Source: Planctomycetaceae bacterium
Lineage (GTDB): Bacteria > Planctomycetota > Planctomycetia > Pirellulales > Pirellulaceae
Length of the DNA stretch: 64,000 bases
NCBI GenBank assembly: GCA_002723275.1
Contig: PBNZ01000004.1
Span: 157,917-221,916 of the forward strand
Reading direction: 5' to 3'
The notes under the pieces were generated by a model. That model saw only the letters and a program-made list of their open reading frames with translations, was not told the origin of the DNA and did not search any database. A program made the translations under genes and the position numbers. Positions 1,072-48,705 of the stretch are shown here, in pieces; position 1 is the first letter of the stretch; the number at the start of each line of letters is the position of its first letter.

Positions 1072-2220
1072 TCATGACGTTGCTTTTTTCTGATTGGTAG
1101 CGAATTCGACAGCGGAATCGAGCTTTTGCGCGTGTTGAGGCCAAGTCAAAACCTCTAAACGATTCCTTAACACCCGATCGGTATCCTGCCACAAACGGCC
1201 ATTTTCCTTGCGTTCAACGAGTTTTCGCAAACGGTCGGCCAACGATTGCTCCCCCCCTTGGTAGAAATGTTCCTGCAAAATCAGGGGTTCCTGAGCCCCC
1301 AAGACTTCCGGATAGGCAAGCCGTTCCGGCAGCAGTGGAAAAGCGCCTGCCAATACAGCCTCCACGACACTCAATCCGAAAAACTCATGCACCGCGGTCG
1401 AGACCACAACGTCGGCCCAGGACAACACCTTCCCATAATCCTCACGAGATGCCTGGTGACCCCAATAGTCGATTTCCGACTCAAATTCAGAGTTCGCTTT
1501 TCCAAATACGTCGGGAACATCTCGAAACGAAGGGCCGATCACGGCTAAACGAAAGCGGGCCTGTTCCGCCTTGAGTCGGCGTAGTGCGGCAAAAAACAAT
1601 TCCGCATTTTTATCGTGCTCCCAGCGAGCACACCACAGGATCCGAAGAGGTTCAAGACTCGCCTCTCGCTCGTTGTCACGGGTCGGTTGATTCGTTGGTG
1701 GCGGTTCAAATCCCGGTGGCTGAACCGATGCCTTATTCCGAATCTTTTCGACAGCATCGAGATGTTGATAGTCCGGCATGCGTCGCAAGAACTGCTCAAT
1801 TCCCTCAAGAAACTCAACTTCGTGGAAATGAGAGTTGAACCAGACCGCGTCAGCTCGGAGCGCCGAGAGGAAGTTGGAATAGCCGTAGTGATAATCGCGA
1901 GGCTGTCGGGTGGGATAGGTCAGCTGATTTTCATGGAAGTAGACAACCGCAGGCAGCGCTGAAATTGGGCTACTGACCATTCCCATGAACTCAGGAAGAT
2001 TGAGCATATCCGAGCAGAAAAGCAGGTCCCAGGAGTGCCCTTCATCCAGTTGGCGATTGATTTCTTCGGCCAACGTCAAACTCGCATGCCGCATGCGCCA
2101 CTTCCATTTGTAGTCAGGAAGCCCCACCAGGGTCCAGGTATGCCGGCTATACCGTTCCCACCCTTCCAGGAAAGCACGATGGCTACCGCCAAAATACGGC
2201 TCAATCGCGAGGATCCTCAT
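1072..2220 (-). CDS. DUF3524 glycosyltransferase, homologue of tRNA-queuosine alpha-mannosyltransferase (QTMAN)
   Basis: The N-terminus carries the DUF3524 signature: EPYFGGSH at residues 7-14 and KWKWRMR at about 38-44, both conserved in the QTMAN (formerly GTDC1) family. The C-terminal half is a GT-B glycosyltransferase domain with ARWEHDKN near residue 200 and an acidic donor-binding loop EFFGLSVVEA near 280. QTMAN transfers mannose from a nucleotide sugar to queuosine at position 34 of tRNA-Asp in vertebrates; whether bacterial members do the same is inference. I place the start at ATG 2220 because GGAAG lies about five bases upstream; ATG 2232 is in frame but less well placed. About 382 residues, cytoplasmic, divergent from the DUF1570 gene. 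Confidence 0.85.
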   Translation of the reverse strand: MRILAIEPYFGGSHRAFLEGWERYSRHTWTLVGLPDYKWKWRMRHASLTLAEEINRQLDEGHSWDLLFCSDMLNLPEFMGMVSSPISALPAVVYFHENQLTYPTRQPRDYHYGYSNFLSALRADAVWFNSHFHEVEFLEGIEQFLRRMPDYQHLDAVEKIRNKASVQPPGFEPPPTNQPTRDNEREASLEPLRILWCARWEHDKNAELFFAALRRLKAEQARFRLAVIGPSFRDVPDVFGKANSEFESEIDYWGHQASREDYGKVLSWADVVVSTAVHEFFGLSVVEAVLAGAFPLLPERLAYPEVLGAQEPLILQEHFYQGGEQSLADRLRKLVERKENGRLWQDTDRVLRNRLEVLTWPQHAQKLDSAVEFATNQKKATS

Positions 2221-16635: not shown

Positions 16636-16825
16636 ATCGTGTACCGAAAGATAAGCCTGCCGACGTGATCCACGCCCTCAATTATTCCTCAATCAACACA
16701 GATCGCCGCGTTAATTTGAGAGTTCCCTGACGATCTGTCAGAATGGGATCCGAATGGTTTACGGCAACGGCCGGATTCATTTGTCGGTCGAAGGTACGAA
16801 GTCATTGAAAAAGTCTTTCATCACC

Positions 16826-19066
16826 ATGCAGTCGATAGTTTCTTCCTACCGAACGATATCTTTCTTAACCGTTTGTTGTGTGGCGTTCCTTCTTTCCGCC
16901 CGCGGCACGATCGCGGCGGATGAATTCGTTTTTGAGAGGGACGTGATGGCGGTGCTTTCCAAGGCTGGTTGCAACCTTGGAACCTGTCACGGTAATCTCC
17001 GTGGTAAGGGTGGACTGAGCTTGAGTCTACGAGGCCAGGATGCCGCGGGGGATTTCCTCGCGTTAACCCATGACTTGGCGGGGCGACGCATCAACCGCAA
17101 CGCGGCTGACGAGAGCTTGATGCTGCTGAAGCCTGTTGCCGGGGTGCCTCATGAAGGTGGACAACGTTTTCAGGTCGGCAGCCTTGAATACACGATCTTA
17201 AGAGACTGGATTCGGGCAGGTTCACCGGGTCCCGCTTCGACTTCGCCACCGGTTACGCAACTTCAAGTAACCCCTCAACATAAAAATATTTTCCTGCCCG
17301 AGGATTCCGTCCAACTGGAAGTGATTGCGACCTTCGACGACGGCACGACTCGCGACGTCACGCGTCTAGCGACCTATGAGGCGGAAAATCTGGCGACACG
17401 AACCTCTGCCAATGGTTTGGTCGAACAGGATGAATTCGGCGAGACGACGATTGCCGTACGTTTTCTGAATGAGCAACTGGCAGTACGACTGGCATTTTTA
17501 CCACCGAGTCGTAGCGCTTCTATGGCCCTTCCCGAGCCGCAAAACTACATCGATCGTCATGTCTTCGGCAAGCTCCAAGAACTTCAGATCGAACCGGCCG
17601 AGTTAGTCAGCGATTCGGTCTTCGTCCGGCGTGCCTATTTCGACCTTCTGGGAATTCCCCCGACCGGTCAAGAAGCGCAGGCCTTTGCCAACGATCTTCA
17701 CCAGGACAAGCGTGCCAGGCTCATTGATGAATTGATGAATCGTCCCGAGTTCGCCGACCAATGGGCACTCAAATGGTCAGATCTATTGCGGAATGAGGAA
17801 AAGGTCATGGATGCTCGTGGCGTCGAGTTATTCCATAGCTGGATCCGTCGCAGTTTTGCCGAAGGACAACCGCTCGATGAGTTTGTGCGAGAGTTAGTAG
17901 CGGGTCAGGGAAGCACTTACGAGAATCCTCCTTCCAACTACTACCGACCGTTGCGAGACCCACTCAGTCGTGGCGAGACGACGGCACGACTCTTTCTCGG
18001 CGTGCGTCTTCAGTGTGCAAAATGCCACAATCATCCCTTCGACCATTGGACACAGGATGACTACTACTCCTGGGCCGGCGTATTTGCTCGAGTCGACTAT
18101 GAAGTGCCGGAAAACAAGCGTCAGGATCGACTCGACAAGAATGAATTTGTCGGTGAACAGCAGGTCATCGAAAAGATGGAGGGAGAGGTCACCAACGCTC
18201 GCACGGGTGAGGCGGCCACGCCTCAGTTTCTCGGCGGTGAAGCGAGCGCTGTTACCCCGGACGCGAGTCGTCTAGAGCAGTTGGCAAACTGGCTTACCTC
18301 CCCTGCGAACAAATCATTTTCACAAGCTCAGGTTAATCGCATCTGGTTTCACCTGCTGGGTCGTGGTCTCGTCGAACCGGTGGATGATTTTCGCGTCACA
18401 AATCCTGCAAGTCATCCGGAATTGCTGGAAGCTCTGGCCGACGACTTCGTCCGTCACCGATATGACGTACGCCATTTAATTCGCAGGATCATGATGTCCA
18501 AAACCTACCAGTTGGCATCTCATGGCAGTAACGACGAATTCGCCACAACCAATTACGCTCGAACGATGGTTCGTCGTCACTCCGCAGAACAATTGCTCGA
18601 TGCTCAATGTCAACTTCTCGGCATGCCAAGTCAATTCAACGGCTACGCTGAGGGAATTCGAGCCGGACAACTGCCGGGAGTATTGCGGGTTCGCTTGCGG
18701 GAAAAAGCACCGTCACCTGACGATCGCTTTCTGACCGTTTTCGGCAAGCCTAAACGTTTAATGTCCTGTGAATGTGAGCGTTCGGACGAGACAACCCTGA
18801 CCCAGGCGTTTTACCTGTTGGGCGGCGAGAGTCTCCACGGACGTTTGGCGAATTCAGCTCGGCTTAAGAAACTGGCAGAGCCCACCAACAGTTCCTTAGA
18901 AATCATCCGTGAACTGTATTGGTCGGCATTATCGCGTGCACCGGCGAACGAAGAGATGAATCTTTTTCGTCGCCAACTCGAGACTCAACCGGAAGAACGT
19001 GAGCAGATCATTCAGGATCTCGCCTGGGCTCTCATCAACTCCAAAGAATTCATGTTTCGGCATTAA
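16826..19066 (+). CDS. exported DUF1549/DUF1553 (planctomycete cytochrome-like) protein with Ig-like domain
   Basis: From ATG 16826 there are about 746 residues, beginning with a leader (ISFLTVCCVAFLLSARG ending in TIAAD). Near residue 49 is CNLGTCHG, a haem-type or structural Cys pair with His. Residues about 150-225 resemble a bacterial Ig-like (BIG2) domain (LEVIATFDDGTTRDVT). The DUF1549 domain follows with LQCAKCHNHPFDHWTQDDYY near 397, then DUF1553 with the VNRIWFHLLGRGLVEP block. Such proteins are usually encoded next to DUF1501 genes, as here (18 bases before the next). ATG 16754, with GGGA upstream, is an alternative start that would give a long N-terminal extension. Function unknown. 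Confidence 0.9.
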   Translation: MQSIVSSYRTISFLTVCCVAFLLSARGTIAADEFVFERDVMAVLSKAGCNLGTCHGNLRGKGGLSLSLRGQDAAGDFLALTHDLAGRRINRNAADESLMLLKPVAGVPHEGGQRFQVGSLEYTILRDWIRAGSPGPASTSPPVTQLQVTPQHKNIFLPEDSVQLEVIATFDDGTTRDVTRLATYEAENLATRTSANGLVEQDEFGETTIAVRFLNEQLAVRLAFLPPSRSASMALPEPQNYIDRHVFGKLQELQIEPAELVSDSVFVRRAYFDLLGIPPTGQEAQAFANDLHQDKRARLIDELMNRPEFADQWALKWSDLLRNEEKVMDARGVELFHSWIRRSFAEGQPLDEFVRELVAGQGSTYENPPSNYYRPLRDPLSRGETTARLFLGVRLQCAKCHNHPFDHWTQDDYYSWAGVFARVDYEVPENKRQDRLDKNEFVGEQQVIEKMEGEVTNARTGEAATPQFLGGEASAVTPDASRLEQLANWLTSPANKSFSQAQVNRIWFHLLGRGLVEPVDDFRVTNPASHPELLEALADDFVRHRYDVRHLIRRIMMSKTYQLASHGSNDEFATTNYARTMVRRHSAEQLLDAQCQLLGMPSQFNGYAEGIRAGQLPGVLRVRLREKAPSPDDRFLTVFGKPKRLMSCECERSDETTLTQAFYLLGGESLHGRLANSARLKKLAEPTNSSLEIIRELYWSALSRAPANEEMNLFRRQLETQPEEREQIIQDLAWALINSKEFMFRH

Positions 19067-19084: not shown

Positions 19085-20443
19085 ATGATGAAACTTCCGC
19101 GACGTAGCGTCCTGAAGATCGGCGGCACAGGCCTGTTGGGCCTCACGCTTCCGAAGTTGTTACAGGCGAGCGAGGTTTCGCATCATCGCCCGCGGGCGAA
19201 GTCGGTGATTTTCTTGTTTCAATGGGGTGGTCCAAGTCAACTCGACACGTTCGACATGAAACCGGATGCCCCCGACGGAATTCGCAGCCCCTATCGGCCA
19301 ATCTCGAGCACCGTACCGGGGATGCCGGTCTGCGAATTACTGCCCCGCATGTCTCAACAGATGCATAAGGTAACGTTGATTCGCACGCTAACGCATAAGA
19401 TGAAAAACCATGCATCGGCGGGATATTATGCGATCACGGGTCACGAACCTCCTTCCGACGATCAACGACTGCGAGATTCATTGAGTCTTTATCCAGCCTA
19501 TGGGAGCGTCGTCGATCGGCTGGCAGTATCCAATCCAGGTGTACCAGCCTTCGTCGCTTATCCGCATGTCATCCGTGACGGCTCGATTGTCCCCGGACAA
19601 CATGCCAGCTTTCTTGGAAAATCCCACGACCCACTTTTCTTTCAGGAAGATCCGAACGCTACTGGCTTTCGTTTGCCAGAACTTAGCCTACCCGCGGATT
19701 TATCGGTCGATCGTTTACAGCGGCGCCGATCGCTACAACAGTTGATCGACCAACAAACGCGTTACCTTGATCGCTCCGAGAAAGCCATTGGTTTCGATCA
19801 GTATTATGACAAGGCACTTTCCATGCTGACGTCAGATCGCGTGCGCAAAGCGTTCGATCTGTCTCACGAGCCGGAAGTTTTGCGTGATGCTTATGGCCAC
19901 ACGACTTACGGTCAGAGTTGCTTATTGGCTCGACGATTAGTGGAAGCCGGTGTCAAGTTCGTGACCGTTTACTTTTCGAATAGTATTGGCGGAAGAAAAA
20001 TAGGATCCGGAGGCTGGGATACACACGGATTTGACAACTCACGCATGTATAAGATCGTCAATAAGTATCAGCTTCCGATGACCGACCAAACGCTTCCAAC
20101 CTTGTTGATCGACCTGGAAAATCGCGGACTCCTGGACGAAACACTGATCGTTTGGATGGGAGAATTCGGGCGGACACCAAAGATCAATAAGAACGAAAGT
20201 CGGGACCACTGGCCGCAATGCTATACGGCGTTGCTTGCGGGTGGAGGCGTCAAGCAAGGTCACGTTCACGGAAGTTCGGATCGTTACGCTATGTATCCTG
20301 CGGAACACCCTGTGCGACCTGACGATCTAGCAGCCACGATGTTTCATCTTCTGGGCATTGACCCGAAGACCGAAGTCTACGATCGAGCCAACCGACCTCT
20401 TCCGATTGCTGAAGGTGAAACGATCCGAGACATCTTGGCGTAG
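19085..20443 (+). CDS. DUF1501 family protein with twin-arginine leader (second copy)
   Basis: A 452-residue homologue of the protein at 14786. The leader is PRRSVLKIGGTGLLGLTLPK (about residues 5-24), followed by FLFQWGGPSQLDTFDMKP, GGWDTHGFDN and [18 protein letters not shown], the DUF1501 blocks. It follows the DUF1549/DUF1553 gene by 18 bases, the commonest arrangement of this pair in planctomycetes, so both proteins probably act together outside the cytoplasm. The order of conserved blocks matches the first copy, though overall similarity looks moderate by eye. Confidence 0.93.
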   Translation: MMKLPRRSVLKIGGTGLLGLTLPKLLQASEVSHHRPRAKSVIFLFQWGGPSQLDTFDMKPDAPDGIRSPYRPISSTVPGMPVCELLPRMSQQMHKVTLIRTLTHKMKNHASAGYYAITGHEPPSDDQRLRDSLSLYPAYGSVVDRLAVSNPGVPAFVAYPHVIRDGSIVPGQHASFLGKSHDPLFFQEDPNATGFRLPELSLPADLSVDRLQRRRSLQQLIDQQTRYLDRSEKAIGFDQYYDKALSMLTSDRVRKAFDLSHEPEVLRDAYGHTTYGQSCLLARRLVEAGVKFVTVYFSNSIGGRKIGSGGWDTHGFDNSRMYKIVNKYQLPMTDQTLPTLLIDLENRGLLDETLIVWMGEFGRTPKINKNESRDHWPQCYTALLAGGGVKQGHVHGSSDRYAMYPAEHPVRPDDLAATMFHLLGIDPKTEVYDRANRPLPIAEGETIRDILA

Positions 20444-21433: not shown

Positions 21434-24400
21434 TCAGTCCCAACTCTTAAGCTTGGTGACGACGTCAATCACTTCGTTCCGTTTTTTCTCAAAGACGGCG
21501 AATACGGCAATGATGATGACGCCCGTTACGATCCCCGTCACATACCAGAGCCAGGTTTGTTCGAGATCGACTGCGGCATACCAGATGACGGTCATCAATG
21601 AGATTACGAGAAACGACAATCCCATAAACAAGAACGCTCGAACACGCATCAGGATACCGACAAATATCCCAGCGATTGAAAACGCTGCCAGAATCGCCGG
21701 TAACCAGGGAGCGTTACCGACTCCATTGATAAAGATATCCCCCGTCGAGGATGCATAGATCACGGAGACAGACAAATATCGAAGGGTATTCATCTGAGTC
21801 GGACTGAGACTTTCACGATTCAAATAGGCAGCAATCAATACGCAGATCGCTCCGGGAATGAGCCACAACTGAGGATGTAAGAAGAAACTGATCTGCACGG
21901 TGTCATGCAGGAAGAACCAAAGGGCTCCGTTCGCGGCCAGGGTTGCGAGGATGCCAAAACCAAATGACTTCCTTATCACGGACAAACCGGCATACAGACA
22001 TCCGACGGTGAGCATGATCACCGAATAGTTCACACTCTGGTCGGTCAACCAAAAGCCGATGACGGGCAAAAGCGGAAGTAAAGCCCCGGTTTTTTCGAGT
22101 GGGTTTGCCAGGTATTCAATCTGACGCCGCTTGAACCATTCGCTCATACCGACGCCTGCAAAGGCGATGACCATCACGATTATCGTCCAGTATTGCTGGA
22201 AGAGGCCCGTGAAGAGATACGGCATCGTAACTCGTAAGTGCAAAAACAGCAGAGCGATCAGTCCTTCTGCACCATAGATGTAAATCGCCCTCCTGCTTTC
22301 CTGAAGATTGAGAGGATCGCGCCCTGGCACGATGGCTGCCACCAGACACGATGCCACCGCCATCAACAGAGCCGCTGCGACAGCAAGGACGCCCGGCAGC
22401 GACAGATCGACAGCACCAAGCGACAGGTACAACCACACCTCCAGCACCAGGATGACCGCAACCGAGGAAACTCCGACAACGATCAACGCCGGAACAAACT
22501 GATACCCAGCTCGAGTCCAAGCATTTTCACGCCGCAGAATCTTGGACAATCCGATTCCATAAAAAGCAGCCATCCCCATCACCGCACTCGCAAATACAAC
22601 CGCGCGATTCAAACCGGTAGCATGCGGTCCATCTGGATCAATCCAACACCATCCAAATCCTACGGCCGCAACGGTGCCGAGCAAAAGAGACGTCATTCGG
22701 AGTTGCGTCTCACGCGTTCCACGAGCAAGCATTCCAATCGAAAATGCCATCGCCGCAATCGCCTGACTACAAGCCAATCTCAAACTTAAGACTTCACAAG
22801 TAAACTGCGTGAGCAATGCAAATATGGTCACGAAAGTCGCCAAGAGCCCATTCAACGGGATGAGCCATGTCTGCGTTCGTTGCTGCAAATCATCATTCGC
22901 CGGAATTCGCAAGGGAGCAAGTAATTGTCCGATCCCTTGTCTGCGACTCCACAAATAGCTCGTCGCAAAACCGTAAGACGCCAGGACAAGCGTGCCATTC
23001 CAAACCATCGGCTCTAGCGTGAGGTTGAACGAGTCCAGCAGTGAGGCCGAAGCCAGCAAACCAGCGAAATAAACTCCAATCACCGCAAGAGAGTTACGGG
23101 GATGCCATAAACAAGACAGGTTCGCGATGGCAAGACTGATCAATGCGACAATTTGAACCAACCCATTGGTTCCCCTTTGCCAATTGTCGATATCCTGAAG
23201 CAGGTTGATGCTGATCATTAACGTCATGATCAACATCGACATAAGAATTGAAATGAATTGAATACTGGGAAACCTTCGTTTGACGGTTGCCGATCTGTAG
23301 AACAGCCACGACCAAAGCACAACCATGGCATTCATCACGATGGCATTCCCCAACATGAACTCGAAGAACACCCCATAATCAGACGAATTGAAAAGCGAAT
23401 TCCCTTCTTCAGTCCACCACAGAGAAAAGGTCAAATTAGCAAAGAGTGTTGCCAAATAAGCATTTCGATGCTTTTGAGTGTGCCATGCTCGAATAGCCCA
23501 AAGGCCACTTGCGGAGAGCCAAGCCATGATTGGCCACCAAGGAAAATTCGGCTGCGTATCGTATCCGAAGACTCCTCGGATTCCGAGATAGGCGAGTGTA
23601 ACCGCAGTCAACCAACCCCAACGAGAAACCAGTGGGAATGACGCATCTGAAGTTTTTTGGTTCCGGACCACATCGAGAACAACACAGACAATGGCCCCGA
23701 CAACGATCGCGACTTGGAGCAGTCCAAACGAAAACCAATGGTTAGAAGTGACGGGGTCGAAGGCATTGCTCTGTAAACTGACCATCGCCACGAACCCGAT
23801 CGCGGCGAACTGCCAAAATCGATCTGACAGATCCATCCCGCGCGTCCGCAATAGCGCCATGACGCCGCCGACGGCAAGCAGGAACGCGGTCCAACCAAGC
23901 CATCCGGTCACAATATCAATCTGAATGTTGTGGTCGGGCACGATCAGCAACGCCAACGTAAAGAAGGCAAGCGGCAACGCAATGAAACCAACGCCAATTC
24001 CAACCTGCGCGGTCAGCCAAGCTCCTTCTCGATCTGCCCATCGACGAATGCGTTGATAAATCATCCATCCCAGTGCATAGACCGAGGTCACAATCGAGTT
24101 AATCTGTGCGAGTTGAATACACTGTTCGGGTCCGAGCTTGCCTTTTAATGTGAGCATAAACCCTGCCGTAGCCGAAAACGTCAACAACAATCCCGCCGTA
24201 AAGCTGACTGCCTCAGAACGAAGACTGATGGCATTTCCAATCATTCCGATACTCATGCATACCAAGGGAACGGCATACGAACCGGCGAGGCCAATTTGAA
24301 AAAAGAAGGAATCGTGATCTGGCCCAATGATCGGATGGGATCCTAAAGATCGACCCACGACAAACAAGGTGAGGGCAAACACCGGCATCGAAGCCAATAC

Positions 24401-27400
24401 CGCTGCACTCCTCGTCAAAACCTGCAACCCTCGGGCATTTGAATTCCATCGTGGAATGATCAGCGCAGCTCCCACCGCAACCAGACCCATAACTGCGAGA
24501 GTTATCAACCAGTTTGTTTCCTCACTATCCGGCGGTTCGTTAGACACTGCGGAAATCGCGACAAAAATCGCCATGCCAATTAAGGGAATGGCAGCAAAAA
24601 AGGCGAGCACTCCAAAACTGAACCACTCGATACGAGGGAATTGTCTTTGCTTCAACCAGAATTGCCTGGCGATCCATCTGCCAATTGGGTGACGGAACCA
24701 AATCAAGGCTGAGCCGATCAAAAAGTAAATCGCATAGGCCCACCGCGTTGCCGATGCCACTGAAACGGTGTCATACCAGTTCGCGGCAACGAGAAGCGGC
24801 GAAGCAGAGACTACAACGGCCAATGCAGCCAAGTTCCACCGCCGAGGATTCTCGGCAAATGAGACAACCTGACTGACAGCCACAGCCGCTAACAGCAGCC
24901 AGGTGTAACCGTTATGCGCCAGATTGATCAGTGAGTCTCCCAGTTGAAAGCTGGATAAATCAGGAACAAGCCGCTCACCGTTGGTTTGCGACGAAAGTTC
25001 TTGAGCGATCCCGGGAATAGCCCCGTACAACACCAGATAGATCACCACCACCGTTGGTACGGTCAAGAGTGCCTGGTTGAAGTATCGCACCGCAACGGAA
25101 TCAAAAGGCCAGAATGTGACGTTCTCGTCATCCTTGGAGCGCTTGTTCGCGAATGCTCGTATCAGAATCCATGCGATGCCGTAGATCGATAAGAGTAAGC
25201 CCTGGAATTGCAGCCGAGTTGGTTGCAACCAGCCTAAATCTCCTAACTCGTACCATCCTCGAGAACGCAGGTAGGAGTCAACCAAAACCATCAAGAGCAG
25301 CCCAAAGACCACCTGAAATGCGACGAAGATTCCTTCTATTTTTTCAATGAACGCCATGGCGAGCCAAACACCCGCTAGCCACAACAGGAACCCTATCGAG
25401 AGCGGTGTTCCAACGACGAACACTTGAATGACCGACCATAGCAGACTACAAGCCACAATCGCCGAAACGACCATGGCGATGACACTGGATGTGATCCGTA
25501 CTGACTTATTCGTCTGTGGCTTAACGCGTGTTGCAGTAACTGCGATCAGCGCCATCACTGATGCATGTGTCAAGAACATCACATAGGACAGCTGCGCTGA
25601 ATCAAATCTCCAGGGCCCCATGAAGAATCCCTGATAACAGCTTCCCATCAAGAATAGCGCACCGAAAGCAACAGCCCACGGAATGGACGTCAGTAAACTA
25701 ACGGCGAACAGGATTAACGCATAAACCGCAAAGATCCACGTCAGGTGATAGGGATCGCCTTCAACATTGAAACCAAAGTATGCCAATAAGCCGGTACTCA
25801 GAATCACGCAACCCGCACTGACTCCAGCATAACGGAGGGCCGTTGCGACTACGCCAAAATGCCGCAAGCCTGCAACGGTCACTGCGCCGAGCAGCGAGAT
25901 CACCGACAAATACTGCCCTGTGGTCCCTGAGAACAAGACGCTAACGGTTTGCTTGGATTCCGACACCGTCCAGGTCAGGTCGCCCATCAGCACGTGGGCG
26001 AGCAATACAAGTGCCACGGAAAACATGGCGGCCGAAACAAGATGGGCATCGACGACCCGCAGAGCTTGTGCCACGTAGGTAATCAGAACGCCGCCGAGAA
26101 CTGCCAGAGCGATCATGAGTACAGGTTGCGGCCAGGCGGCAACGCAACCTGCTCCAATGATGATGGTCCCAGCAACGAGCAACCCGCTACCCACAAATCG
26201 CTGACTTGCGAGAGAAGAGCCTGGCCGTTTCCAGAGCAACAAACCTAACGACATAATCGGAAGCGCCCAGAGAATGGACAGAGGGGAAAGCTGCTGCAGC
26301 ACCCACCTGGGATCTGTTGAACGTGCAAGCAACAAACCGCCAGCAGTGATCACAGGGAAGGCAACAAGTCCCATCTGCCGAAGTAGCTCGTTGCCATACC
26401 GCTCGGGAATCGATGCTTTGTGACGATATCGACGTATCGGATTCAAACAAGCAATCCCGTATACCAACAAACAGGGAACTGCCATCGCGTAAACCACGAC
26501 GGCAGACCCCGTATCATCAGCAAAACGCTTGATCAACAACTGCAGGGCAGACGTCACGAGCACGCCGATCGTCAACCAGAGAGGCCACCGCGGCGTCAGC
26601 ACTTGACCAGCAGCAAAGACAAAGAATGAGAAAATGCCAACCGAGATCACTTCACCGGCGACGGAAATTGGATCAATCGTTCCGGCAGTATCCGCGAATG
26701 CAGCGATCGCCAAAAAGTTCAAAGGCACCAACAGTGTGGCGATCGTCAGAATCCCCTGACTGGTCGTTGGCAATCTCCAATGTTTTGCCGCATGTAAACC
26801 GACACCAAAGAGAGCAGCGATCACTCCATTCAAGACGCCAAACTTCAAAAAGCGATTCTCGGCGATGTTTGCCCAGAACGTGACAACCAGTGCGATGGTA
26901 CACGAAACAATCAGCAAGCCACCGACCAGTTCGCCCCAACGAATATTCTTCTCTTCCATAAAAGCAGCAAACCACACACTCCAGGGAACTTTCGGCTTGG
27001 GAGGTTTGATTTCCGGCTGTTGCGCCGCAGCTGCCTGGCGACTCGCTTGGTAAGCCTGCGCGCGATCCTGCACCGATGTCGTGGCAGCCGGCTCAAGCTT
27101 GTCACTGCCCGGCTTTGCCTGGGGTGGATCCTTGGGGGACGTTAGAGGCTTGGGTTGATCAGACGAGATGCCTCGTTCCCGAGCAAGCTCCTGATCAGTG
27201 GTCGCGTTGGAAACAGGCCGTTCCGACTGAGGTTGATCCTCCTCCCGCACGACCGTCTCGGCAATGATGAGGGAATCTTTTGCAGCTTCTGGAGATTTTA
27301 CCATCTGCCCGAACGCTGCCAGCATCACCTGGCGAAGCTCAGAATCAATCTTGCCTTCCCGCTTCAGTCCCTCGATCACCCGTCTGATCCCCTGTCGCTG

Positions 27401-27577
27401 GATTCGACCGCCGAGATCCCATCCGCAATGACCACATCGTTGAGCAGGATTCATCGAGGTTCCGCAGCGCAGACAGGACTCAGTTTCCGCGCTGTCATCC
27501 ACGCTTTTGCGCCGGTTTAAAATGGAAAACGCAAGTAAAAAACCGGCGATGAAGGCAATTAAGATCGATATTTCCAT
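21434..27577 (-). CDS. giant polytopic membrane protein (2047 aa) with N-terminal zinc ribbon
   Basis: Residues 1-20 form a first hydrophobic helix. A zinc ribbon follows with Cys35, Cys38, Cys48 and Cys51 (CLRCG...CGHCGW), then a charged helical stretch (about 55-120) and a Pro/Gln/Ala-rich linker to about 200. From about 215 to 2030 hydrophobic helices succeed each other with short loops; by eye there are several dozen. GELVGGLLIVSCTIALVV and TTSQGILTIATLLVPLNFLA near the start of the membrane part recall DUF2157-like membrane proteins. I recognise no enzyme motif. AGGGAAACCG precedes the ATG. It is downstream of the ECF sigma factor and kinase on the same strand. Function unknown. Confidence 0.85.
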   Translation of the reverse strand: MEISILIAFIAGFLLAFSILNRRKSVDDSAETESCLRCGTSMNPAQRCGHCGWDLGGRIQRQGIRRVIEGLKREGKIDSELRQVMLAAFGQMVKSPEAAKDSLIIAETVVREEDQPQSERPVSNATTDQELARERGISSDQPKPLTSPKDPPQAKPGSDKLEPAATTSVQDRAQAYQASRQAAAAQQPEIKPPKPKVPWSVWFAAFMEEKNIRWGELVGGLLIVSCTIALVVTFWANIAENRFLKFGVLNGVIAALFGVGLHAAKHWRLPTTSQGILTIATLLVPLNFLAIAAFADTAGTIDPISVAGEVISVGIFSFFVFAAGQVLTPRWPLWLTIGVLVTSALQLLIKRFADDTGSAVVVYAMAVPCLLVYGIACLNPIRRYRHKASIPERYGNELLRQMGLVAFPVITAGGLLLARSTDPRWVLQQLSPLSILWALPIMSLGLLLWKRPGSSLASQRFVGSGLLVAGTIIIGAGCVAAWPQPVLMIALAVLGGVLITYVAQALRVVDAHLVSAAMFSVALVLLAHVLMGDLTWTVSESKQTVSVLFSGTTGQYLSVISLLGAVTVAGLRHFGVVATALRYAGVSAGCVILSTGLLAYFGFNVEGDPYHLTWIFAVYALILFAVSLLTSIPWAVAFGALFLMGSCYQGFFMGPWRFDSAQLSYVMFLTHASVMALIAVTATRVKPQTNKSVRITSSVIAMVVSAIVACSLLWSVIQVFVVGTPLSIGFLLWLAGVWLAMAFIEKIEGIFVAFQVVFGLLLMVLVDSYLRSRGWYELGDLGWLQPTRLQFQGLLLSIYGIAWILIRAFANKRSKDDENVTFWPFDSVAVRYFNQALLTVPTVVVIYLVLYGAIPGIAQELSSQTNGERLVPDLSSFQLGDSLINLAHNGYTWLLLAAVAVSQVVSFAENPRRWNLAALAVVVSASPLLVAANWYDTVSVASATRWAYAIYFLIGSALIWFRHPIGRWIARQFWLKQRQFPRIEWFSFGVLAFFAAIPLIGMAIFVAISAVSNEPPDSEETNWLITLAVMGLVAVGAALIIPRWNSNARGLQVLTRSAAVLASMPVFALTLFVVGRSLGSHPIIGPDHDSFFFQIGLAGSYAVPLVCMSIGMIGNAISLRSEAVSFTAGLLLTFSATAGFMLTLKGKLGPEQCIQLAQINSIVTSVYALGWMIYQRIRRWADREGAWLTAQVGIGVGFIALPLAFFTLALLIVPDHNIQIDIVTGWLGWTAFLLAVGGVMALLRTRGMDLSDRFWQFAAIGFVAMVSLQSNAFDPVTSNHWFSFGLLQVAIVVGAIVCVVLDVVRNQKTSDASFPLVSRWGWLTAVTLAYLGIRGVFGYDTQPNFPWWPIMAWLSASGLWAIRAWHTQKHRNAYLATLFANLTFSLWWTEEGNSLFNSSDYGVFFEFMLGNAIVMNAMVVLWSWLFYRSATVKRRFPSIQFISILMSMLIMTLMISINLLQDIDNWQRGTNGLVQIVALISLAIANLSCLWHPRNSLAVIGVYFAGLLASASLLDSFNLTLEPMVWNGTLVLASYGFATSYLWSRRQGIGQLLAPLRIPANDDLQQRTQTWLIPLNGLLATFVTIFALLTQFTCEVLSLRLACSQAIAAMAFSIGMLARGTRETQLRMTSLLLGTVAAVGFGWCWIDPDGPHATGLNRAVVFASAVMGMAAFYGIGLSKILRRENAWTRAGYQFVPALIVVGVSSVAVILVLEVWLYLSLGAVDLSLPGVLAVAAALLMAVASCLVAAIVPGRDPLNLQESRRAIYIYGAEGLIALLFLHLRVTMPYLFTGLFQQYWTIIVMVIAFAGVGMSEWFKRRQIEYLANPLEKTGALLPLLPVIGFWLTDQSVNYSVIMLTVGCLYAGLSVIRKSFGFGILATLAANGALWFFLHDTVQISFFLHPQLWLIPGAICVLIAAYLNRESLSPTQMNTLRYLSVSVIYASSTGDIFINGVGNAPWLPAILAAFSIAGIFVGILMRVRAFLFMGLSFLVISLMTVIWYAAVDLEQTWLWYVTGIVTGVIIIAVFAVFEKKRNEVIDVVTKLKSWD

Positions 27578-27720: not shown

Positions 27721-29397
27721 CTAATCGGAAGGGGGAATTAACTGCGACTTCTTTCCAGCCTCGTAGAAGCGGCTCAATGCACGTATTCTGCGCACATGGG
27801 TCCACACGATGCACCCCACAATCGTCAATCCCAGGACAAAAAATAGGTGATCGTGTGTTTCAATTTTCGAATCCGGCACGAACCAAGTCATAAAACCATA
27901 ACCCACGACCGACGTGACGGTGGTGTAGGCGACGAGACGGGACCGCATCAAGGTCCCGGAAGCGGCAATCAAGATTGAGTATCCGATCAACAAGCTGCCC
28001 CTCGGTGGGTCTGCCATGACGAGGATCAGCGTAAGCAACACGACATCAACCGTTACCCAGAGAAACCGAGCTATGTTTGCGAGCCGCGCGTTATTCAGCA
28101 TTTTTTGCAACGCAAATGAAAGCGATAACCACAAACAGAGCGCCGAGACATGTTTCATGTGATAGGCCAGGTTTTCTCCGCTAATGAGATATTTCATTTG
28201 CAGAATGACTAAGAAGGCGATGATGGCACTCAAATGCGCAAACAACGCAGGCTCTCTGCGCGTCCAACGACGTATGCCGTGCAGAGAATCCCCTGCCCGT
28301 TCTTGAATTGGTTCATCTCGCAAGAAACGCTGAAGATCTGCGGCGAGTTCACCGGCAGACGAATAACGGCGTTCCGACTTTTTCTCCAAACATTTTGCAC
28401 AAATCCGGTCCAACGCGTTGGGCACCGCAGTGACAATGCTCGATGGCAGCTGAGGTTCCTGGTAAAGCACTTGATGTAACAGATCGAGCGTCGACTCTGC
28501 CTCAAAAGGCGGCTTTCCGGCCAATGCGTTGTAGAGAATCGCACCGAGTGCATAAACATCTGAGGCTCCATCGACATCACGATCACGGCCCGATGCCTGT
28601 TCAGGCGACATGAAGGCGGGTGTTCCAAGGATCTGGCCAGTCGCGGTCAAGTTGCTGTTTTTCGCAACGCGCTTTGCAAGTCCGAAATCAGCCAAGTGCG
28701 GCTCTCCATGGTTATCCAGAAGAACATTTGCTGGCTTGAGATCCCGATGAATCACTCCCTTGGAATGGGCGTACTCAACGGCATTGGCAAGTTTCATCAC
28801 TAAGTCGGCAGCATCTCGCACCGCCAAGGGTCCCTTGCTCAACTCAGAAGAGAGACTCGTACCCTGGATATAGGGCATTGAGAAGAAGTGGATCCCACCG
28901 AGCTCACCGACCTCGTAAACCGAAATGATCGCCGGGTGCTCGAGATTCGCCGCGGCCTCGGCCTCGATTCGAAAACGAGCGATCTCTTCTTCATTGGCCA
29001 GCTGGCCCGACTTGACCATTTTGATCGCCACGGGTCGGTCTAAAGAAATCTGATGCGCCTCGAAGATGACCCCCATTCCGCCGCGACCAATTTCGCCGAG
29101 CAACTCAAAATCATTGCCGAATCGACAGGGTAGTTGAAAGGCATCGACTGCGGATGGTGTGTATCCTCCGACAGAGGTATGTACTTCGTTGCCGTCCGAT
29201 TTCGACCGAGAGTCGGAGTACCCGCCCGTCATCGCGTCGTGATCTCGCCAGAAATCCTGCAAGGCATCGGCAAAGTCTGCATGCCGCGTCAAAATCTGGG
29301 CACGATCTGGAGCATCCCCGGACGCAACCGCCAACAAATACTCGGCCAAAATCTCATTTAGTTTCAGATCTTGAGAATCATCTGAATTGGATTTCAT
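27721..29397 (-). CDS. membrane-anchored Ser/Thr protein kinase
   Basis: The 558-residue protein has a short N-terminal helical region, then a complete Hanks-type kinase domain from about residue 92 to 360: GEIGRGGMGVIFEA (P-loop), VAIKMVKSG (catalytic Lys), VIHRDLKPANVLLDN near 212 and HLADFGLAKR (DFG) and MSPEQASGRD further on. After about residue 390 there are several hydrophobic helices, so the kinase faces the cytoplasm and is held by a C-terminal membrane domain. The ECF sigma factor gene lies 101 bases upstream, a common planctomycete pairing, and the giant membrane protein 143 bases downstream. Targets are unknown. Confidence 0.94.
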   Translation of the reverse strand: MKSNSDDSQDLKLNEILAEYLLAVASGDAPDRAQILTRHADFADALQDFWRDHDAMTGGYSDSRSKSDGNEVHTSVGGYTPSAVDAFQLPCRFGNDFELLGEIGRGGMGVIFEAHQISLDRPVAIKMVKSGQLANEEEIARFRIEAEAAANLEHPAIISVYEVGELGGIHFFSMPYIQGTSLSSELSKGPLAVRDAADLVMKLANAVEYAHSKGVIHRDLKPANVLLDNHGEPHLADFGLAKRVAKNSNLTATGQILGTPAFMSPEQASGRDRDVDGASDVYALGAILYNALAGKPPFEAESTLDLLHQVLYQEPQLPSSIVTAVPNALDRICAKCLEKKSERRYSSAGELAADLQRFLRDEPIQERAGDSLHGIRRWTRREPALFAHLSAIIAFLVILQMKYLISGENLAYHMKHVSALCLWLSLSFALQKMLNNARLANIARFLWVTVDVVLLTLILVMADPPRGSLLIGYSILIAASGTLMRSRLVAYTTVTSVVGYGFMTWFVPDSKIETHDHLFFVLGLTIVGCIVWTHVRRIRALSRFYEAGKKSQLIPPSD

Positions 29398-29498: not shown

Positions 29499-30068
29499 TT
29501 ACTCCTCGCGCAAATGTAAATGCTCTCGCAGCTTTTTGAGACCACGATGCAGGAGTCCCGCCACCGCCGATGGACTTTTCCCCAAACCGTCCGCGACCTC
29601 TGTCAGCGACTTCTGCTGAAGGTAATGTTGGATGACTGCTTCGCGTTGGTGTTCCGGCAAACTTTCGATCGCCTGACTCAGTTGCAAGATTTGCTCAGCC
29701 CGCACAACTTTAACACTCGGGGAAGAATCCTCATTCGAGAGTGATCGTTCCAAACACAATGACGAATTCGCGAGCCCCGCTTCGAGTGAGCGTTCACGCT
29801 TGATGTCTCGTTTATCCCGATTGTAATCTCGTGCAGCATGCGCAAAGTTGCGTGCCAAAATCTGTCGTAGCCAGGCAGCCATCGCAGCAGGTGATTCCCC
29901 GCGAAACTGATCGATCGCGCGATGTGCCTGCATCAAGGTCTGCTGAACCATATCCGATGCGTCAACCTTACGAGCCAGGTGCGGATTAAGCTGCATTCGA
30001 GCCAGGACACAGAGATATGAGCGAAATTCTTCGAGCTCGAGATCGTCACTCGGAGATTCGGCATCCAT
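29499..30068 (-). CDS. ECF-type RNA polymerase sigma factor (planctomycete group)
   Basis: About 189 residues from ATG 30068. Region 2 is seen in KVDASDMVQQTLMQAHRAID and WLRQILARNFAHAARDY; region 4 in LPEHQREAVIQHYLQQKSL and EVADGLGKSPSAVAGLLHRG, a helix-turn-helix for the -35 element. The form matches the planctomycete-specific sigma-70 subgroup that is typically encoded with Ser/Thr kinases. No anti-sigma gene is adjacent; the kinase may control activity instead (inference). TTG 30074 is in frame, but AAAGG is better spaced for ATG 30068. Confidence 0.92.
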   Translation of the reverse strand: MDAESPSDDLELEEFRSYLCVLARMQLNPHLARKVDASDMVQQTLMQAHRAIDQFRGESPAAMAAWLRQILARNFAHAARDYNRDKRDIKRERSLEAGLANSSLCLERSLSNEDSSPSVKVVRAEQILQLSQAIESLPEHQREAVIQHYLQQKSLTEVADGLGKSPSAVAGLLHRGLKKLREHLHLREE

Positions 30069-30176
30069 CGACAATCGCCTTTCAGGGGTTAGCTAGTTTC
30101 TCAAGGCCGTTATTGTCGCACAAACTCGCTGGCAAAGCCAACCGACAGCGGTAGATCGCAACCGGCCGTGGATCAT

Positions 30177-46563: not shown

Positions 46564-48705
46564 TTAGGCATCGGTTGCAGAATAAGCCTCCTCAACAATC
46601 GTCGTCGTGAGTGGTGCCACGAGTGCAGCATCATCTTCATCCGAAACGGCTTCTTGAGCATTCAACGAAGCGATCATTCCTCCGGACAAGCCTCTTCGAG
46701 GTGTCCATCCCAATCGATGCTTCGCGATCGAGACATCGTACGACCGCGGTGCAAGTGCCGAACGAAATCGATAAACCGAGAAAGACCCTCTGCGCCCCAA
46801 AATCTTCAGCGTTTTTTCAAGACACCAGGCAGCCGCAAAAATTGCGATCTTGGGAACATGTATCGTTCGCAGCGATTCACCTGTGATTTCGCTATACCGA
46901 CGCGCCATCTCATTTTGATCGGTCGAGTCGGGGTCGACGAGGTGAATAATGGAGCCATCGCGGATGCCTTCTCGTTCCGCTGCAACGATCGCATCCACGA
47001 GATCCTGCACATCGATGAGGGGCATTTCCAGGCTGCCATCACCAAACATAATGAGCCAGTTTCCTTTTCTCTGCCCAACGCCGGATGACATCAGCGGTCC
47101 CCCTTCACCGATCACCTCTCCCGGTCGAAGAATCACCGCGGGCAGACCAAACTGATGAACAGCTCGGGTCACCACACGTTCCGCTTGCAATTTCGTCTGC
47201 GTATACATTCCACGCAGCTCTGGAAACGACTCGAGTTCACCCTGTTCATCAATCGGCGTTTTCTCAGATCGCAACGCCTGCAAGACACTTAACGAGCTGA
47301 CATAAATGAACTGGTCGACGGCATGACGGAGCGCACTGTTCACGATATTTTCAGTGCCGACCACATTGCCTCGCACGAAATCAGCGGGCTCTCCATGAAT
47401 GACTCCACCGACGTGGTAGACCGTTTTGATGCCTGCTACTGCGCGATCGACGACATCACGATCACCGAGGTCACCAAGTACGAACTCGATCTGATCATGA
47501 TTCCGTAGTTCCTGACTGAGCGGCTTGCGAGCAAGAACGCGAACTCTTTCCCCTCGGTCAAGCAATCGACGGAGTAATTGGCTGCCGATTCGCCCCGTCG
47601 CGCCGGTGATCAAGGTTGTCGCTGACAACTCTTGGATATGCTGTTGAAGATATTCTTCTTTCTGTCGATCCGCGTCTGCGGCGACAGTTTCGCACCAACG
47701 ACCGATGCGTTTCGCTTGTTCTGGCCCAGCCAAGGCAGATTCATTTCGCGCCAGCCGTTCGTAAAAGTCAATCACCATTTCCTGCAGGCCGTGATAACGT
47801 CGCAGTTTTTTGGTTGCCATACGAGCGAGGTTCCAGGGAACCTGCATACATGTACTGATCGACTCCGACACCGCATTGATCGCGCGACGAGGATGTTCAG
47901 GTAAAGGCAACTGCCGCCGGACGGTGGTGGAAAGTCCAAAACGATCAATCCGGATGGATCCACAGGTCCCCTGAACGAACAGCACATCTTGGGGCGGACG
48001 GTTTTGCCAGGACATCTGAACCACTGCTGACCCACGTTCGCAACGGACCATGGCTTGCCACTCATCAAAGTGCAAACAGGGATCGTTACCACGATGTTCA
48101 AACATCCATTTCAGATCGACAATGGGTCCGAGAAAGGCCTCGATTTGGTAGAGCGAGTGAATACCCAAATCGCGAAACGGAAATCCTCCCACACGAAACA
48201 TTTCAGGCATCTCTCCACCTTCATAAAGTGGATAGTCTTGTGCACGAATGCATTGAACTGAGTTGACCTCTCCAATCATCCCAGCGGCGATGATCTGCTG
48301 TGCCTTGAGCGTGAAGGGATCGAGGAGTAACGAGTGATCGACACCCACTGTTTTTCCGCAGCGATTAGAGGCTTCGATAATCGCGTCGTACTCTTCAACA
48401 CAATTCGCCAGTGGTTTTTCAACAAATACATGGCAACCGCGCTCCAAAGCACGAATCACCAAGGATGCATGGCTTGCCGGCGGAGTCAGGACATGCACCA
48501 CGTCGACATCGGCGAGCATTTGGTCAACGTCTTGATAGACACTGCCAATTCGGAACTGTTTCGCCAGTCGTTCGGCATTTTCCGAGACCAGATCCGTAAT
48601 CCCAACCAACTCAGCGGTCTGCACACGTTTTAACGCCTGAATATGAAACGGACAGATATGTCCCGCACCGATCAGACCTACCTTCAACTTATTACGACGA
48701 ATCAT
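46564..48705 (-). CDS. fused Gfo/Idh/MocA oxidoreductase - NAD-dependent epimerase (SDR)
   Basis: A 713-residue two-domain protein. Residues about 1-340 are a Gfo/Idh/MocA oxidoreductase: KVGLIGAGHICPFHIQAL at 8-25 binds NAD(P), and CHVFVEKPLANCVEEYD near 95 contains the catalytic Lys. Residues from about 361 are an extended SDR with TLITGATGRIGSQLLRRL, YVSSLSVLQ, MYTQTKLQAE (Tyr-Lys pair) and LRPGEVIGEGG. Fusion of the two suggests two successive redox or epimerisation steps on one sugar. The substrate cannot be named. The ATG overlaps the upstream stop by four bases. Length and continuous frame argue against an assembly artefact. Confidence 0.92.
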   Translation of the reverse strand: MIRRNKLKVGLIGAGHICPFHIQALKRVQTAELVGITDLVSENAERLAKQFRIGSVYQDVDQMLADVDVVHVLTPPASHASLVIRALERGCHVFVEKPLANCVEEYDAIIEASNRCGKTVGVDHSLLLDPFTLKAQQIIAAGMIGEVNSVQCIRAQDYPLYEGGEMPEMFRVGGFPFRDLGIHSLYQIEAFLGPIVDLKWMFEHRGNDPCLHFDEWQAMVRCERGSAVVQMSWQNRPPQDVLFVQGTCGSIRIDRFGLSTTVRRQLPLPEHPRRAINAVSESISTCMQVPWNLARMATKKLRRYHGLQEMVIDFYERLARNESALAGPEQAKRIGRWCETVAADADRQKEEYLQQHIQELSATTLITGATGRIGSQLLRRLLDRGERVRVLARKPLSQELRNHDQIEFVLGDLGDRDVVDRAVAGIKTVYHVGGVIHGEPADFVRGNVVGTENIVNSALRHAVDQFIYVSSLSVLQALRSEKTPIDEQGELESFPELRGMYTQTKLQAERVVTRAVHQFGLPAVILRPGEVIGEGGPLMSSGVGQRKGNWLIMFGDGSLEMPLIDVQDLVDAIVAAEREGIRDGSIIHLVDPDSTDQNEMARRYSEITGESLRTIHVPKIAIFAAAWCLEKTLKILGRRGSFSVYRFRSALAPRSYDVSIAKHRLGWTPRRGLSGGMIASLNAQEAVSDEDDAALVAPLTTTIVEEAYSATDA

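Follow-up and report, generated by a model that had tools for sequence, protein, structure and literature searches.

We analyzed a stretch of 64,000 nucleotides from contig PBNZ01000004.1 of a Planctomycetaceae bacterium (the window), in which one open reading frame (ORF) on the minus strand, running from 27577 down to 21434, encodes a giant membrane protein of 2047 codons with an ATG start and 59 predicted transmembrane (TM) helices. The protein has a single intact match in its own genome. Relatives were extracted from fetched loci, which hold 47 matching ORFs of at least 900 amino acids (aa); 44 of them exceed 1,500 aa and measure 1,799-2,750 aa. Because 22 relatives align along the 2047-aa protein with 19-46% identity to it, and because such long frames are this numerous, the ORF is coding and not a chance frame. 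It is a real, giant single-chain polytopic membrane protein, as proposed by an earlier note made from the DNA alone, with hydrophobic helices from residue 217 to ~2029 (~1,810 residues). That the frame is an artefact, i.e. a fusion of ORFs through misassembly or a gene in decay, is hardly credible. Comparable uninterrupted frames in many genomes and different families, single-contig genomes included, refute it, and nothing in the window speaks for it; a few relatives (G487, G497, and G340) each have one in-frame stop.

All features of the protein are given on the minus strand. A first TM helix (residues ~1-19, 27521..27577), absent from the earlier note, precedes a Cys4 zinc ribbon read from the sequence, C35-x2-C38-x9-C48-x2-C51 (27425..27475), and a low-complexity, poorly conserved linker (residues ~90-200, 26978..27310). 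The ribbon and a disordered linker had both been described in that note, and the ribbon is confirmed here. A conserved N-core (residues ~200-600, 25778..26980) follows, then a middle region with putative repeat units, and finally a conserved C-core (residues 1740-2047, 21437..22360). Conservation peaks in the cores, with values of 0.62-0.66 at residues 201-300 and 0.54-0.66 at 1751-2047, against 0.18-0.47 in between. The C-core is the richest in near-invariant polar residues; R1763, H1780, E1813, H1901, Q1903, R1933, Y1934, Y1941, S1944, and E2030 are near-invariant charged or polar residues located in or at predicted helices.

Two sets of sequences were used for the family. Alignment A1 contains the window protein and 22 of the 44 extracted relatives, and the set for the tree, topology, and repeats contains 45 sequences, i.e. 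43 of the 44 frames plus L168 and L169, the 1,799-aa L060 being dropped for a stop upstream in frame. Hydropathy averaged over 23, and then again over 45 family sequences, gave 59 segments both times; counting in the single protein at a stricter threshold gave 50 helices. In the 45 sequences, every one of the 30 loops that follow an odd-numbered helix has a net positive charge, and the 29 that follow an even-numbered one lie between -1.6 and 0.8, most of them at or below 0. The alternation has a p value of 6.8e-11 with the zinc-ribbon loop left out, and of 1.9e-8 for the window protein alone. This long ribbon loop is the sole odd loop with a negative sum (-1.8) in the 23-sequence average. Since one missed or extra helix would break the charge alternation from that point on, a number of ~59 membrane helices is well supported, with the caveat that an even number of missed or extra helices close together would leave the alternation intact. 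By the positive-inside rule, the N-terminus is predicted to lie outside, and the zinc ribbon and the C-terminus in the cytoplasm. Of the 45 family members aligned, 28 show a loose Cys4 ribbon pattern, which in a few cases may be due to chance; the ribbon is therefore optional in the family.

The whole window protein gave nothing above the curated cutoffs in Pfam and NCBIfam scans, in which SCO7613_CTERM was not listed. The same scans of the 23 family members returned stray matches only, below the 1e-3 significance level or in single members (DUF6768, E 0.0006; AceI-type PACE transporter, E 0.0091; LpxE, E 0.079; one member each), and the family profile gave three weak hits among PDB chains at E<=1 (E 0.09-0.23). 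The earlier note's view that no enzyme is recognizable agrees with the scans of the window protein, where no enzyme or transporter family rises above cutoff, and the kind of hit that the note had named beforehand as speaking against it, a convincing one to an established family of transporters or enzymes, is found neither in Pfam and NCBIfam nor in the scans of the relatives and of the PDB. The isolated C-core, by contrast with the whole protein, matches SCO7613_CTERM (NF047321; 21446..22021) at 25.9 bits, under the curated cutoff of 45, over positions 3-185 of the 188-position profile and at residues 1853-2044. In the genome scan this match reaches 28.2 bits, again below cutoff, and is the sole one listed for the window genome. 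Matches to SCO7613_CTERM at E<=0.01 occur in 9 of the 23 giant C-cores, and two relatives, G069 and G048, score 38.9 and 38.0 bits. A scan of 199 genomes found 34 with a match, 6 of them over cutoff, and the six over-cutoff open frames measure 1,410-1,582 aa. The 1,367-aa zinc-ribbon relative L164 is over cutoff with 51.4 bits and also gives weak matches at both ends with the giant profile.

Profile-profile comparisons point in the same direction. The giant C-core against 14 SCO7613-type C-parts, five of them from over-cutoff proteins, gave 97.6% (0.2% for the reversed control), and the N-part against 8 SCO7613-type N-parts gave 97.9% (reversed, 1.2%). With the relatives of ~1,215 aa, the values are 98.5% for the N-part (6 sequences) and 99.8% for the C-part (7 sequences), with 1.6% and 0.3% when reversed. 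Against the whole reversed membrane part, the SCO7613 C-parts reach up to 4.0%. Among 22 unrelated polytopic families (31 ORFs) used as a control, the best value is 32.7%, from a family that itself bears DUF2157-like and SCO7613-like matches, and the others are at most 3.4%; ORFs that BLAST matched to the test sets were removed from these controls, many of which are single sequences and thus less sensitive than the test alignments. The SCO7613-type alignments were built from hand-picked clear members (14 of 22 ORFs for the C-part, 8 of 22 for the N-part) and carry a mild circularity, as L164 and L166 had originally been found with the giant C-core profile. L167, which looked like a short member of 928 aa, is a fragment: it begins at the edge of its contig, and its start repeats the final part of L010, which lies on a different contig of that genome. 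It was used only in the C-part alignment for the profile comparison.

From these alignments, we conclude that the C-terminal module of the window protein is homologous to SCO7613_CTERM, of which it is a divergent version located at the C-terminus. The giant is very probably a repeat-expanded member of the superfamily that holds the SCO7613_CTERM membrane proteins, with an optional cytoplasmic zinc ribbon, an N-core, about three to four diverged units, and a C-core. The SCO7613_CTERM proteins share with it the C-core over nearly the whole profile, the N-core, the many helices, and, in some, an N-terminal zinc ribbon; they differ in length, the over-cutoff frames being well short of the giants, and in that the window protein scores below cutoff. 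The planctomycete relatives L157-L162 (1,215-1,240 aa) likewise have both cores homologous to those of the giant, whereas their middle is shorter by ~800 residues and no zinc ribbon appears in the starts inspected. This size series from ~1,215 to 2,750 aa offers natural variants for probing what the extra helices do.

The middle region suggests how the giants became so large. Window-by-window self-comparison, proposed in the earlier note as a check, gave consistent registers at ~441, 677, 1050, and 1304, with a best score of 65.9 (probability 94.4%) and a mean best score of 46.6, against 33.3 when reversed, even if one reversed window reaches 50.3. The units are a putative unit A (residues ~441-676, 25550..26257), which overlaps the end of the N-core and is the weakest, B (~677-1000, 24578..25549), C (~1050-1303, 23669..24430), and D (~1304-1640, 22658..23668). 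They repeat at ~250-280 residues, with eight predicted helices in each of C and D. The A-B pairing, which scores 44-47, is not secure because it falls under the worst reversed window; units B, C, and D are thus better supported than A. In six relatives, which measure 2,297-2,496 aa, 265-287 residues are inserted after window residue 1152, in unit C. This insert clearly repeats its neighbor in tandem, offset by ~270-280 columns, with a score of 145.8 (99.1%) against no more than 28.8 when reversed. Comparing the insert and its flanks with relatives lacking the insert gave 99.6% for ~1041-1400, 97.2% for 750-1160, and 91.2% for 1285-1642 (reversed, 1.3%). In the tree, the six insert-bearers group with L083, which has no insertion, at a support of 1.0, and the six alone at 0.28; a single duplication in one lineage fits this pattern and is not proven by it. 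Together, these comparisons support growth of the giants by tandem copying of a block of about eight helices between the conserved N- and C-cores. Two further relatives, L079 and L080 (2,700 and 2,750 aa; 71 and 68 hydrophobic segments by a simple count), have a different insertion set, so that growth perhaps occurred more than once.

The earlier note had suggested duplication of DUF2157-like segments, of which the internal duplication stands and DUF2157 as the repeated segment does not. We rejected DUF2157 as the repeat unit, as the sole DUF2157-like stretch (residues 217-291) sits in the N-core and the repeats lie further along. This stretch matches DUF2157 (PF09925) at 17.1 bits in the protein scan and 23.6 bits in the genome scan, under the gathering cutoff of 32.4. 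Only 1 of the 23 family members has such a match at E<=0.1, the relatives L157 and L164 score 27.1 and 24.5 bits, and the profile comparison of DUF2157 with the giants drops from 43.7% to 6.0% when the linker is removed. Apart from this one stretch, the likeness lies in the C-terminal ends of DUF2157 proteins, which weakly resemble SCO7613-type ones (66.8%); the ten DUF2157 proteins extracted are much shorter (287-651 aa).

Relatives of the giant occur elsewhere in the Planctomycetota. A query with the single protein matched 11 of 294 genomes in a phylum sample and 82 of 296 in an order sample, both counts including the window genome. With the C-core profile, 30 of 392 genomes matched in the phylum sample and 49 of 148 in the class sample, 38 of these 49 at E below 1e-60, some being contig-end fragments. 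Searches beyond the phylum comprised a single-protein scan of named-species genomes, a search of viral contigs, and one plasmid search. The named-species scan, which detects close relatives only, gave L017 as the sole relative, from a metagenome-assembled genome of the Pirellulales (best segment 42% identical); the viral contigs held no relative of the giant protein, and the plasmids, searched with a 206-aa SCO7613-type C-terminal piece, gave no match. Among the open-licence papers listed for planctomycete giant proteins, TM-helix numbers, DUF2157, DUF2339, SCO7613, and Arc3A, none was recognized as a description of the giant family. A gene without annotation, with relatives in more than a quarter of the order genomes sampled, is tied to a named but functionally dark superfamily.

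Another family with dense helices, DUF2339 (PF10101, cutoff 33.6), gave no Pfam match in the window genome. A first comparison of DUF2339 with the giants, at 97.9%, was discarded since the reversed control reached 94.3% in the linker region, and it was repeated without the linker. Against the giant membrane part alone, a set of 9 DUF2339 sequences from planctomycetes reached 77.6% (8.8% and 15.7% when reversed) and a set of 37 reached 87.6% (24.1% and 10.3% when reversed); the DUF2339 C-terminal ends gave 59.6% with the giant C-core. A distant relation between the giants and DUF2339 is, on these values, probable but unproven. Both have a linker followed by dense helices, a variable TM number, and, in some DUF2339 frames, repeated matches to the same profile part; most full DUF2339 frames are shorter (~640-1,365 aa). 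At four DUF2339 loci from the order genomes (G524, G551, G554, and G581), several matches fall on the same part of the profile (~508-632 in three of them), and DUF2339 proteins thus also seem to grow by internal repetition.

Arc3A of Pseudomonas aeruginosa is a DUF2339 protein with 35 predicted TM domains and a predicted N-terminal lipidation, the latter not seen in the giant, and prevents the build-up of lysophosphatidylethanolamine (LPE) and monolysocardiolipin under phospholipase attack (PMC8926400). As possible modes of action, its authors name sequestration of lysophospholipids by the helices or interference with the phospholipase (PMC8926400), and a second paper describes protection by Arc3A from lipase effectors (PMC12663445); passages of two others on DUF2339 (PMC11047544, PMC11760712) list mutants and give no mechanism. 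Giants and DUF2339 occur in the same genome less often than expected, as would be the case for alternatives doing one job. In the class sample, 2 genomes out of 148 have both, where 9.8 would be expected (p 0.0005); in the order sample, which rests on the less sensitive single-protein search, 9 out of 296 do, where the expectation is 22.4 (p 7e-5).

We tentatively propose that the giant handles a single-chain amphiphile, most likely lysophospholipids, as Arc3A does; this role, drawn by analogy, is possible, though we hold it to be well short of probable. The N- and C-cores would fold together into the working unit, with the conserved polar residues lining a site, and the repeat array would provide a large surface within the membrane that binds or spreads lysolipids pending their repair or removal. 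The zinc ribbon would then be an optional cytoplasmic docking element. The more general idea, that helix-rich chains arising from in-frame tandem duplication between fixed cores are lysolipid sinks or conveyors whose capacity is set by the number of repeat units, seems unlikely to us.

Several observations weigh against this proposal. The link to DUF2339 is weak, as the DUF2339-giant alignment has several competing registers and DUF2339 gave only 0.3% with the relatives of ~1,215 aa, whose kinship with the giants is certain. Phylogeny confounds the low co-occurrence, which shrinks to 7 versus 12.6 expected (p 0.03) when all C-core hits are counted; in the window's own family, 6 of the 10 DUF2339-bearing genomes also carry a giant, so that mutual exclusion is weak, being seen overall but not in this family. 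Without attack, loss of Arc3A alters neither the stability of LPE nor the regeneration of phosphatidylethanolamine, and the precise mechanism of its defence against lysophospholipids, to which the giants are tentatively linked here, is unknown according to its authors (PMC8926400). SCO7613 is the sole gene of the named family for which we found a deletion phenotype in the literature; its deletion lowers polyhydroxyalkanoate content, possibly indirectly (PMC8313934), a phenotype that does not point to lysolipids. No lipid gene generally adjoins the giant gene. Structure models made from two-sequence alignments (the window protein and L017) were all-helical, with a mean predicted local distance difference test score of 48.3 and 45.6, and were discarded as unusable.

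As the earlier note indicated, the giant gene lies downstream of a kinase and a sigma factor, both on the same strand. The Ser/Thr protein kinase (27721..29397, minus) is directly upstream at a distance of 144 bases, and the sigma-70 factor (29499..30074, minus) matches the Planctomycetaceae-specific subfamily 1 (TIGR02984) over cutoff; this match and the Pirellulales relative L017 mark the host as a planctomycete. Among the 44 loci tabulated, both genes recur together upstream, on the same strand and with similar spacing, only in L046, from a sampled congener. At four more loci (L052, L074, L077, and L082), the flanks that were fetched hold a kinase of the same BLAST cluster, a sigma factor of the same cluster adjoins L065 on the opposite strand, and the five loci L018-L022, from one genus, share different neighbors of their own. 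No neighbor is general across the tabulated loci, the giant gene standing mostly alone. Since the pair of kinase and sigma factor is confined to the genus, the neighborhood is weak evidence on function, and we rejected it as a functional clue.

These data bear on three other roles. In the likeliest of them, the giant would be a transporter, flippase, or chaperone for some bulky substrate, lipid-linked or hydrophobic, that is not a lysophospholipid, such as a glycan precursor, a polymer precursor, or a hopanoid. The near-invariant charged and polar residues of the C-core helices are consistent with this, as is the reduced polymer content upon SCO7613 deletion, for which the authors raise glycerol transport (PMC8313934); the scans gave no transporter family above cutoff, with stray weak matches in single relatives, and a generally conserved neighbor is lacking. 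We regard this role as conceivable but rather improbable. A scaffold or filler without substrate, whose array organizes or crowds the membrane while partners bind the cores, would explain why the middle region diverges faster and varies in length, and suits a gene that mostly stands alone. That the polar residues of the C-core are so strictly conserved suggests a specific site instead, which makes such a scaffold unlikely.

The giant could also be a sensor of membrane tension or envelope stress resembling Piezo, in which the array bends or senses the membrane, the C-core acts as effector, and the ribbon signals to a partner, perhaps the adjacent kinase. Piezo1 has a similar design, with 38 TM domains in repeated helical units and a C-terminal pore (PMC10969519), as the giant has very many helices in a repeat array and a conserved C-terminal module; in LiaF, which belongs to an envelope-stress system, the N-terminal helices are described as DUF2157 (PMC11237479), and a kinase and a sigma factor do adjoin the giant gene within the genus. 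The likeness to Piezo is one of design only, as none of the PDB chains hit by the family profile is a Piezo, the conserved cores lie at both ends and not at the C-terminus alone, and 59 helices compare with 38. Given, moreover, that the DUF2157 link is below threshold and that the kinase and sigma factor are not conserved outside the genus, we consider such a sensor doubtful. The handling of lysophospholipids remains our preferred, if tentative, proposal.

Other genes of the window were noted in passing. On the plus strand, 16754-19066 and 19085-20443 encode a PSCyt2/PSD1 protein (DUF1549/DUF1553) and then a DUF1501 protein, followed by a ThuA protein. In the congener L046, members of the BLAST clusters to which these genes belong adjoin the giant gene. 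On the other side, a long run of genes, mostly on the minus strand (31063-62441), resembles a surface polysaccharide cluster, judging from six genes scanned, and includes an LPG-synthase-TM-like protein, a GINT1_N protein, an asparagine synthase, a 1447-aa TPR protein, and a Wzz/ParA-like protein. Within its bounds, a 713-aa ORF (46564-48705, minus) combines GFO_IDH_MocA in its N-part with an NAD-dependent epimerase in its C-part, an apparent fusion of two sugar enzymes.

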